From the NCBI RefSeq assembly GCF_018704065.1, contig NZ_JAGUQP010000005.1, positions 38,035 through 102,034 on the forward strand: 64,000 nt of DNA. Reading direction: 5' to 3'. Made by a program: the position numbers and the translations under genes. Source of the DNA: Desulfovulcanus ferrireducens (GTDB lineage Bacteria; Desulfobacterota; Desulfovibrionia; Desulfovibrionales; Desulfonatronovibrionaceae). Positions 36,591 through 60,825 of this stretch are shown here, piece after piece (the first letter of the stretch is position 1; each line of letters starts with the position of its first letter). Below the pieces are notes generated by a model. It was not told where the DNA came from, searched no databases, and saw only the letters and a list, made by a program, of their open reading frames with translations.

Positions 36591-36674
36591 CTGTGACCAC
36601 AATTTAAAACTCTTTTCCTTCAGCAATTTGACAACACTGAGTAAATCTTTTCTGGCATTTGGTAATTTAATTAA

Positions 36675-36771
36675 GCACCCATTTTACAACGACTGTTTGA
36701 ATAGAATGGCCATTGATTTTTTAAAAGCTTAATTTCAGAACCTGACCATAATATTGGCTAAAAATGAGTGC
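36675..36771. repeat. Small terminal-inverted-repeat element, copy A (degenerate)
   Basis: This ~97-bp stretch starts GCACCCATTTT and ends AAAATGAGTGC, imperfect inverted termini. Its interior shares GAATAG, CATTGAT, TTTTAAA and TTAATTT in order with copy B at 55660-55764. No ORF is inside, which fits a MITE-like non-autonomous element. It abuts the larger repeat starting at 36778. Confidence 0.6.
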
Positions 36772-36777
36772 TGGATA

Positions 36778-37092
36778 GTCTGTGACCAAACCTTGATCAA
36801 ACTCAAAGGCCATCATAATTTTTTTCGATCCCGATTTCTTTCAAGCTGGTGCAAATGCCTGGACCCATCTATAGTTTGCTTGCGGGCAGAGCATAATGGG
36901 GCATTTAGAATGTGAGAGAATATTTTATTTATTGCCGATAGTTATGGCAAATAGTCTCAGATATTTAGGTTTGTCACCCCGATGCTCTGCTTATCCACAA
37001 GCTTCGCCAAGATGGTTTACCCAGCCCTTTACAATGCTTTCAAGAAACCAGGATTTTCAATTTGGTGGGCAAAATTGGGTTTGGCCACAGAC
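36778..37092 (+). repeat. Large palindromic repeat, copy 1
   Basis: Three related stretches occur at 36778-37092, 55471-55839 and 57311-57578, all in the same orientation. Shared blocks include GCAAATGCCTGGACCCAT, GGGCAGAGCATAATGG, CTTATCC(A/G)CAAGCTTCG and CAAGAAACCA(A/G)GATTTTCAAT. Copy 1 begins GTCTGTGACCAAACC and ends with the near-complement of the same, so the unit is one long imperfect palindrome of ~315 bp with no convincing ORF. Together with copy A it fills most of the 547-base gap before trmJ. Confidence 0.75.
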
Positions 37093-37137
37093 TTTGGAGT
37101 TTAGAATTTTGAAATTAGGATTTCGGACTTATAAAAG

Positions 37138-40419: not shown

Positions 40420-40550
40420 ATTTTTTAGTGCTCAGCCCTTTGTTATACGAAATAGAACAACTGTCGGATACACCTTGCCAAATTTTACTAACTTTAATGT
40501 TTCAAATTCAGGGATTTTTTCCTTGATTTTCTCTACTTTTCCAGCCTTCA

Positions 40551-40597
40551 CCTACTCAACTACTTAACCCAAGTGCAGCCATCGGATGCACTCACCT
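40551..40597 (-). repeat. Short dispersed repeat, copy 1
   Basis: On the - strand this reads GTGCATCCGATGGCTGCACT followed by TGGGTTAAGTAGTTGAGTAG, about 90% identical to 55350-55396 on +. The end contains GTTGAGTAGGTGA heptamer-like reiterations. It carries no coding potential. Confidence 0.65.
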
Positions 40598-55349: not shown

Positions 55350-55396
55350 GGTGCATCCGATGGTTGCACTTGGGTTGAGTAGTTGAGTAGGTGAGT
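55350..55396 (+). repeat. Short dispersed repeat, copy 2
   Basis: GTGCATCCGATGGTTGCACT followed by TGGGTTGAGTAGTTGAGTAG matches the complement of 40551-40597 with few changes. TGAGTAGTTGAGTAGGTGAGTGGTTGA contains tandem-like heptamers, split here as TGAGTAG, TTGAGTAG and GTGAGTG. It lies just after the sufB stop. Confidence 0.65.
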
Positions 55397-55470: not shown

Positions 55471-55839
55471 GATTTTTCAATCCAGGTTTCTTTCATACTG
55501 TTGCAAATGCCTGGACCCATCTATAGCTTGCTTCTGGGCAGAGCATAATGGGACATTTTGGATAGATGAATATTCTTTTCATTATTAATAATTATGGCAG
55601 ATAGCGTCAGTCAGATATTTGGCTTTGTCGCCCCGATGCTTTGCTTATCCGCAAGCTTCGTCCCGCACCCATTTTGAGTGGGTATCTGAATAGCGATGAG
55701 CATTGATGGTTTTAAAGTTAATTTTTTGCTTTGCCACAAAAGTTGCCGAAAATGGGTGCGGGACTACCCAGCCCTTTGCAATGCATTCAAGAAACCAAGA
55801 TTTTCAATCTGGCAGTAAAAATGGAGTTTGGCCACAGGC
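55471..55839 (+). repeat. Large palindromic repeat, copy 2 (interrupted)
   Basis: This is the same family as 36778-37092. TTTTTCAATCCAGGTTTCTT near the left end and CAAGAAACCAAGATTTTCAA near the right end are imperfect inverted repeats of each other. The centre is interrupted at AAGCTTCG by the 105-bp element at 55660-55764. The right end overlaps the apparent N-terminal extension of the next gene. Confidence 0.72.
55660..55764. mobile_element. MITE-like element with 16-bp perfect terminal inverted repeats, copy B
   Basis: GTCCCGCACCCATTTT (55660-55675) and AAAATGGGTGCGGGAC (55749-55764) are exact inverted repeats bounding 105 bp with no ORF. It interrupts the large repeat, since copies 1 and 3 read CTTCGCCAAGATGG at this point. 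About ten bases of the host repeat are missing, so it is not a simple clean insertion. A degenerate relative lies at 36675-36771. Confidence 0.72.
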
Positions 55840-55866
55840 TCTAAAAAAGCTACAAGGGAAACTGTA

Positions 55867-57167: not shown

Positions 57168-57859
57168 CAGCCAAGAGGTCCAGTCTCCAGTTTTTATAAA
57201 ACTCCATTACTTCCAGTAAGTTTCATGGGTCCAGTTTTCTTGTTTTTTAATAAGTTGAGCATCATGAAAACTTCTTCTTGTTTTATTAAGAAAGCAACTT
57301 CTCATAATTTTTTTCAATCCTGGTTTCTTTCATGCTGGTGCAAATGCCTGGACCCATACTATAGCTTGCTTGCGGGCAGAGCATAATGGGACATTTTGGA
57401 TAGATGAATATTCTTTTATTGTCGATAGTTATGGCAGATAGTACCAGATATTTAGCTTTCTCGTCCCGATACTCTGCTTATCCGCAAGCTTCGCCAAGAT
57501 GGCTTACCCAGCCCTTTGCAATGCATTCAAGAAACCAAGATTTTCAATCTGGCAGTCAAAATGAGGTTGGGACACAAACCCTACTGTTGAAACTTTTTTC
57601 TGTCTCTTATTAAACATAAATCTCATTGGATGCGAAAAAATAAATTGAAAATCACATACTTTTTTACCTTCTTTTCCTTGAAGAGTAAATCGGGTTGTTG
57701 AGTTGGGGGGGTGTTTGTTGAATTTATAGAAGATAGGTGGCATTAAGCGAAAAGTTTCTGACTGAGTCAGAATACGTGTGTAAAAAATCGCTTCACATCC
57801 GGGTTGGATAAAAAAATTACAACTTTTAACAAATTACATCTATCACGAAAGGAGAGAAA
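57168..57859. other. Intergenic region (about 690 bases) with large repeat
   Basis: The region contains copy 3 of the large repeat (57311-57578). The stretch 57708-57859 is conserved in front of the decayed paralogue at 60681-60825. It probably holds the promoter of the 97-aa gene: CTGACTGAGTCAG (57758-57770) is a small dyad. No gene is seen. Confidence 0.55.
57311..57578 (+). repeat. Large palindromic repeat, copy 3
   Basis: This is the uninterrupted relative of copies 1 and 2, with TCAATCCTGGTTTCTTTCAT on the left and CAAGAAACCAAGATTTTCAA on the right. The internal AGCTTGCTTGCGGGCAGAGC is mirrored by GATACTCTGCTTATCCGCAA. It would fold into one long imperfect hairpin. There is no credible ORF. 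Confidence 0.72.
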
Positions 57860-59731: not shown

Positions 59732-60376
59732 TCAAAGATTCCCCAACATGACTTTATGCAAAGCGGCATAGACAAAATAACATGCAAAAATCACTAGAAA
59801 GGTTGCGCATGTCCCGATTATCCCTCTATAGAGTCGATCGCTCAAAAAGTGCCTGCCCTTCCCGACAGCCACAGAAACCGCGGCATACCAGGCGAAATCG
59901 GCCAAAATATGCCCGGTGAAGAAAAAGAAGATACCCCACATACCAAATTGCCTCGAATGTAGAAGATAACCAAGCCCAATTGTTGCCCACCAAATTAACC
60001 AGTATGGATTTGCTATGCTCAATAGTGCCCCGGTAATTACCAAGTGACCACGCTCTTCCGTCCCTGCATCCCATGATAAACTCAAGGTTGGGAGTGTGCG
60101 AAACATTCCGATAGCCATCCAAAACAGAAACCCGGCACCTGCTATAGCAATAACGATAAAGACCTCATCTAGCATTAGAAACGGAGCCAGTCCCAGTAAT
60201 AGTGCGATCACCAATGCCAGTTCAAGAAGGCTGTGACCAATCATAAGCAACGGCCCGGCGATAAAGCCTCGACGAGAGCTTTCACTAACAGAAGCGGTCA
60301 GCAATGGCCCCGGCATCATTGCGCCGGATAGGGCAATTACAAAGGAAGAAAAGAAGATAGTGAGCAGTGTCAACAT
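59732..60376 (-). CDS. LysE-family translocator (amino acid exporter-like)
   Basis: The 214-aa protein has six hydrophobic spans. FVIALSGAMMPGPLLTASVS near the N-terminus matches the GPxxP-type region of LysE/RhtB exporters. Later there are GFIAGPLLMIGHSLLELALV and LSIANPYWLIWWATIGLG with the conserved NP. The substrate is unknown. AAGGATAATTTCACTC precedes the ATG on the - strand. It lies between the ATPase and the decayed copy of the 97-aa gene. Confidence 0.88.
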   Translation of the reverse strand: MLTLLTIFFSSFVIALSGAMMPGPLLTASVSESSRRGFIAGPLLMIGHSLLELALVIALLLGLAPFLMLDEVFIVIAIAGAGFLFWMAIGMFRTLPTLSLSWDAGTEERGHLVITGALLSIANPYWLIWWATIGLGYLLHSRQFGMWGIFFFFTGHILADFAWYAAVSVAVGKGRHFLSDRLYRGIIGTCATFLVIFACYFVYAALHKVMLGNL

Positions 60377-60825
60377 GAGTGAAATTATCCTTGGTTAAAA
60401 GTCTAACGAGAAAGCTCGCATGCTGCCAACCGCAGGCCCGAAGGGCAAGGACATATCCATCAATTTTAAAGTCTTCAATATCTGAATAAAATATATTCTC
60501 AAAACAGCTCACAAAAAAGTTTTTTCTCAACCTATATTTATTTCGTGTAAATTTTACTATTTTTTTCTGAAATATTCCAGTGGAATAATGGCTTTTCCAA
60601 ATAAGATATTTAATTGGTTTATAAAAAACGTCAAAGTCCTTAACGTTATGGAATATATGGATTTGTTGAGTTTGTCGGTTGTTTGTTGAATTTATAGAGG
60701 ATAGGTGGCATTAAGTGAAATGTTTCTGAGTGTGTCAGGACACGTGTGTAAAAAATCGCTTCCCATCTGTCTCAGATAAAAAAATTACGAATTTTAATGA
60801 ATTATCAATCACGAAAGGATAGGAA

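Follow-up and report, generated by a model that had tools for sequence, protein, structure and literature searches.

The genome of Desulfovulcanus ferrireducens carries a large family of palindromic repeats, three copies of which lie in the 64,000-bp stretch of DNA analysed here (the window). As the best explanation for the evidence as a whole, we conclude with high confidence that this family is a MITE, a non-autonomous DNA transposon that contains no genes. The family has TIRs, a target-site duplication of fixed length, a small size without a transposase gene, many dispersed intergenic copies, and an empty spacer in a genome of the same genus. It is an ordinary MITE in kind, with unusually clear anatomy. 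The family is also new: a search of open-licence papers found no published description of it, and there was no homologue outside this genome among those sampled.

The initial annotation had reported three related palindromes in the window. The palindromes and their relationship were confirmed, but the family is larger than the three copies it had stated, as blastn of the genome with copy 1 gave at least 50 matches (40 of 251 candidates scored) and the stretches fetched around such matches held at least 82 two-ended copies. The three window copies do share sequence blocks in a single orientation, with 82-88% mutual identity across most of their length by blastn, whereas the limits first given for copy 1 (36778-37092) had to be replaced by those in Table 1. 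Copy 2 lacks roughly 10 bp of the element at the site of its palindromic insert.

Table 1. Coordinates of the element copies and their parts in the window.
Feature	Position	Strand	Basis or remark
Copy 1, complete element, subfamily A, 319 bp	36776..37094	+	TIR scan, target duplication, alignment A1
Left TIR, copy 1	36776..36792	+	2 mismatches to GAGYYTGTRGCCRAACC
Right TIR, copy 1	37078..37094	-	1 mismatch
Left target-site duplication TGGA, copy 1	36772..36775	.	flank comparison
Right target-site duplication TGGA, copy 1	37095..37098	.	flank comparison
Conserved central stem, left half (TTGCTTGCGGGCAGAGCATAATGGG), copy 1	36876..36900	+	coordinates from blastn between window copies
Conserved central stem, right half, copy 1	36976..37002	+	coordinates from blastn between window copies
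Copy 2, left end lost, right TIR kept, nested palindrome inside	about 55473..55841	+	blastn and TIR scan
Palindromic insert of ~104 bp in copy 2 (CCCGCACCCATTTT...AAAATGGGTGCGGG)	55661..55764, edges approximate	.	gap between blast pieces 55473-55660 and 55765-55840, plus sequence
Right TIR, copy 2	55825..55841	-	1 mismatch
Copy 3, no recognisable left TIR, right TIR degraded	about 57302..57581	+	blastn and TIR scan
Degraded right TIR, copy 3	57565-57581		3 mismatches; TIR scan

Other repeats are present in the same region. Another palindrome type (GCACCCATTTT...) directly adjoins copy 1 (36672-36771) and is also found within copy 2 (55661-55764); GCACCCATTTT was tried as a marker of this nested type and rejected, since its enrichment failed the control (17 occurrences vs 24 for the reversed sequence). 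At 59970-59996, a 27-bp match to the right arm of the element lies on the minus strand and is perhaps a remnant. A 105-bp repeat unrelated to the element occurs at 57695-57799 and 60663-60767 (88.6% identity), and a 44-bp repeat occurs in opposite orientation at 55351-55394 and 40548-40591 (95% identity). Part of the latter, GTTGAGTAGGTGAGTG, was found 10 times in the fetched stretches and 0 times when reversed.

The ends of the element are sharp when copies are aligned with their flanks, and they consist of a 17-bp TIR, GAGYYTGTRGCCRAACC. Across the genome that carries the window (2.59 Mb in 60 contigs), the first 16 bases of the TIR occur with up to 2 mismatches at 303 or more sites (152 and 151 on the two strands), compared with 10 (7 and 3) for the reversed control, and the full 17 bases with up to 1 mismatch occur at 99 and 103 sites, compared with 0 and 0. 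The 505 kb of fetched stretches contain 213 TIR sites with up to 3 mismatches, which form 83 inward-facing neighbouring pairs. One pair of 2402 bp (contig C8) was set aside before the count, leaving the 82 two-ended copies, a number that is a lower bound and a non-random sample in that the stretches were picked by blastn or TIR matches. Orientation could be assigned for all but three of these copies. The BLASTN comparison with the genome that the initial annotation had proposed revealed many further copies with conserved ends.

The proposed search for target-site duplications was likewise positive. Exact 4-bp duplications flank 52 of the 82 pairs, compared with 4.4 expected when flanks are re-paired, and 70 pairs match at 3 or more of the 4 positions; 30 pairs have no exact duplication, and 12 do not match at even 3 of 4. 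When duplication lengths from 2 to 11 were compared in the first 31 pairs, only 4 stood out (19 observed vs 1.0 expected). The target is AT-rich, with TTAA and TTTA the commonest among the 52 exact duplications. The 4 bp on the left flank are dominated by T, T/A, A/T and A in that order, and the base before them is T or C in 72 of 82 copies; the insertion target consensus is Y-TWWA-R. Ectopic recombination was considered as the cause of missing duplications but is not supported: only 3 of 56 long copies had arms that were clearly mixed, and a duplication is present at two of the three.

These features bear on whether the repeats could instead be a palindrome family of the REP/REPIN type, moved by a tyrosine transposase (RAYT/Y1). 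Such a family would likewise be palindromic, intergenic and high in copy number, and REP-like palindromes do occur elsewhere in this genome and within the element itself. However, Y1 transposition is not known to leave a target duplication, whereas the element has one of 4 bp together with 17-bp TIRs. Its normal length of about 316 bp also stands against the 20-40 bp given for REPs where PMC3733652 describes them. We regard a REP/REPIN origin of the family as extremely improbable.

An empty spacer was found in a same-genus genome (82% complete), in which the genes flanking copy 1 are present at 88% and 84% nucleotide identity, the spacer between them is 191 bp long, and the element is absent. 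A different inverted-repeat-like sequence, GATGAAGGAGGAAGGATGAAGG..., is present in that spacer at about 1320-1500 of locus L270. The comparison with relatives suggested at the outset was also run, and blastn with copy 1 found no match in 60 relatives, the same-genus genome among them. In an order-level sample of 297 genomes including this one, 15 others had short fragments of 22-46 bases (E 4e-5 to 0.008), which we took as chance, as we did the TIR matches with up to 1 mismatch in 41 of 395 genomes of a phylum-level sample, where the other genomes had 1-2 each compared with 88 and 95 here. Copy 1 had no match in plasmid and phage records, and a 24-base pattern from the central stem had 0 matches in viral contigs. 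A TIR scan of viral contigs gave 35 stretches with one match each. The corresponding scan of genome contigs gave at least 120 stretches from unrelated phyla, with a single match at each listed locus; this is about chance level, and the scan was discarded.

Within its own genome, the element is intergenic: no called gene contains any of the 82 copies, and 2 of them reach over the edge of a gene, as judged with a crude gene caller whose called coding fraction of the fetched stretches was 0.50. The absence of a conserved ORF noted initially was upheld by stops in every frame in six-frame translations of both subfamily consensuses. The same annotation had placed the copies only upstream of genes, which is true of the three window copies but is not a trait of the family, given that, of the 48 copies flanked on each side by a called gene, 35 are in tandem, 7 in divergent and 6 in convergent spacers. 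In tandem spacers, 21 elements point along the genes and 12 point the opposite way, which is no strong bias.

Between its ends, the element is a long imperfect hairpin, as originally proposed. Copy 1 folds far better than its shuffles (RNA z -3.9, DNA z -4.0; 0 of 100 shuffles as good). Alignment A1 covers 39 copies from the 306-326 bp class; the fortieth was omitted for its ambiguous orientation. On this alignment, a 56-pair structure has 95.8% of cells paired, whereas shuffles reach 94.1% and sliding one side leaves no more than 51.7%. Cells changed on both sides of a pair number 76, compared with 31 in shuffles (0 of 500 as high). In contrast, the number of pairs changed on both sides is 8, a value that 46 of 500 shuffles also attained, and most of the compensatory counts reflect a single split of the family into subfamilies A and B. 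Identity between A and B is 0.92 and 0.87 in the left and right halves of the central stem, 0.50 and 0.65 in the left and right outer arms, and 0.78 and 0.90 in the TIRs. Both arms belong to one subfamily in 52 of 56 long copies, and a tree of the outer arms separates A from B and resolves little else. Because most copies diverge by 10-25%, recent movement of the family is not demonstrated.

The hairpin stability, the excess of compensatory changes and the better conservation of the central stem relative to the outer arms would all suit a family of structured RNAs or regulatory hairpins, selected on transcripts and spread by duplication rather than transposition. Several observations argue against this reading, namely the sharp ends with their 4-bp duplications, the two-ended copies of 36-101 bp that have no conserved stem although ends and duplications are intact in copies without it, the lack of a strong gene-strand bias, the number of changed pairs, which some shuffles also attained, and compensatory counts that mostly reflect one subfamily split. 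Furthermore, the element matched no Rfam family at the gathering cut-off, with one chance-level match (E 4.8) below it; across the window, Rfam identified only a tRNA. Together, these results make a structured RNA very unlikely as the primary identity of the family, and of the two possibilities raised by the initial annotation it is the non-autonomous mobile element that is borne out, by its TIRs, duplications, dispersal and empty spacer.

If the family is a MITE, the compensatory changes could still have arisen by copying from arm to arm, through template switching or inverted-repeat conversion, and not by selection for pairing. Four stem pairs switch jointly between A and B (61-299, 64-296, 84-277 and 122-232 in alignment A1), which are the tracts expected of such copying. 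Nevertheless, the arms are imperfectly complementary and have similar unpaired positions in both subfamilies, which, to judge from the alignment, repeated copying would erase. We consider arm-to-arm copying possible, if somewhat unlikely. Given the compensatory changes in the stem, the hairpin may have a role, as DNA or as RNA.

The 82 two-ended copies span 36-800 bp, with a mode at about 316 bp, and fall into size classes of 36-88 bp (5 copies), 98-101 bp (11), 120-181 bp (10), 306-326 bp (40), 366 bp (1), 473-485 bp (10) and 518-800 bp (5). The short forms have lost a near-symmetric internal segment of the hairpin, often with short direct repeats at its two edges. Each of the 26 copies under 200 bp was fitted to the A or B consensus with a single internal deletion; under the null chosen, on which the test depends (uniform midpoints with both TIRs kept), the mean distance of deletion midpoints from the hairpin centre is 9.6 bases, compared with 20.0 expected, and 0 of 20000 draws were as low. 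The centring persists when the 13 distinct junctions are counted once each (p 0.0008), and the symmetry is approximate, most offsets being positive. Ten short copies have in common a junction at the 7-bp direct repeat GATTTCT, and three have one at the direct repeat ACCCA. Since the partners of each junction repeat sit roughly opposite each other in the two hairpin arms, we infer that polymerase slippage across the folded hairpin caused the deletions. Alternatively, the 98-101 bp class could descend from a single short form that was mobilised, and not from recurrent deletion, which would also account for the ten copies with the common junction; mean identity of the short-class arms is 0.80 among themselves and 0.79 to long A copies, a difference too slight to separate the two origins.

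Longer forms carry additional palindromes. In the 473-485 bp class, the apex holds a REP-like palindrome with TGTCATTGCGAG; this sequence has 58 occurrences in the fetched 505 kb, and its reversed control has 1. This core occurs with both A and B arms at much the same junction, and therefore points to recombination or to a repeated origin of these forms. Further palindromic inserts are present in some of the longer copies. One insert of ~240 bp with CTGAATCCGTGAAA-like ends was seen within two element copies (L027:1999-2610 and G000:C6:80468-81267).

An autonomous partner sharing the same ends, which MITEs commonly but not necessarily have and which had been suggested as a check, was not found among the four transposase families searched. 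None of the 83 TIR pairs in the fetched stretches encloses a transposase, and the only pair longer than 900 bp, the one on C8, had no long ORF in the part that was read. PF01609 has four matches in the genome, none of them flanked by family TIRs with up to 3 mismatches, the TIR-like sites nearby having 4-5; PF13751 and PF13586 have 0 matches in the genome, and PF13701 has one degenerate fragment below the cut-off. Two candidates were rejected: a degenerate transposase fragment on C11 has no family sequence beyond 19 bases nearby, and the similarity at a transposase remnant (L200) comes from an adjoining partial B-type copy and not from common ends. At G000:C6:25870-28451, two genes for DDE_Tnp_1-domain transposases of 605 and 323 aa (L198 and L199) stand back to back. 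The start of the TIR resembles the GAG-CTGT-like ends of IS427/IS1031-type elements of the IS5 family. Those elements produce duplications of 2-3 bp, in contrast to the 4 bp seen here, and PF13586 is without a match in this genome.

In the mechanism that we propose, a transposase encoded elsewhere would recognise the 17-bp TIRs, and the element would insert at AT-rich intergenic sites with duplication of 4 bp, for which the ends, the duplication and the target have been observed directly. The sequence between the ends forms one long imperfect hairpin with the central stem as its best-kept internal part, and slippage at short direct repeats that face each other across the two arms would delete the middle and keep the ends. 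In the 473-485 bp class a REP-like palindrome occupies the apex, and some copies have taken in other palindromes. The family may now be stranded, or may be served by a transposase outside the four families searched.

Among known elements, RUP, ERIC and Correia elements are short, non-autonomous and stem-loop forming, have AT-rich intergenic targets, and produce TA duplications. By description, the present family differs from them in its 4-bp duplication. The QMITEs of Coxiella burnetii, also compared by description, are like the present family short, non-autonomous and stem-loop forming, with AT-rich intergenic targets, in the account given in PMC10969869. The closest comparison found is the Chunjie MITE of Geobacter uraniireducens, again by description only; the sections of PMC10969869 that deal with it report tens of intergenic copies of 178-235 bp with TIRs and direct repeats, and many partial copies. 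On that account, both are bacterial MITEs with tens of intergenic copies, varying sizes and many partial members, and they differ in size and in the number of size classes. A near-symmetric deletion series down to 36 bp and subfamilies with compensatory differences are found in the present family and not in those sections on Chunjie (PMC10969869).

We also raise, as a speculative and on balance unlikely idea, that the hairpin is a working part of the transposon, with a central stem under selection (for example, extruded as DNA at replication and then recognised, or acting as RNA) and the same hairpin shrinking the element stepwise from the middle (about 480, 316, 160, 100 and 36 bp) with its ends kept. 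If this were true, one family would descend a repeatable ladder of shorter, end-intact forms. A single genome here offers enough copies with intact ends and duplications to read how a bacterial MITE decays, and the 26 deletions, with about 13 distinct junctions, provide a natural family in which replication slippage driven by a hairpin can be measured. Whether a MITE hairpin is selected is a testable question raised by the compensatory differences between the subfamilies, and the nested palindromes in the spacers of this genome could pass for RNA genes.
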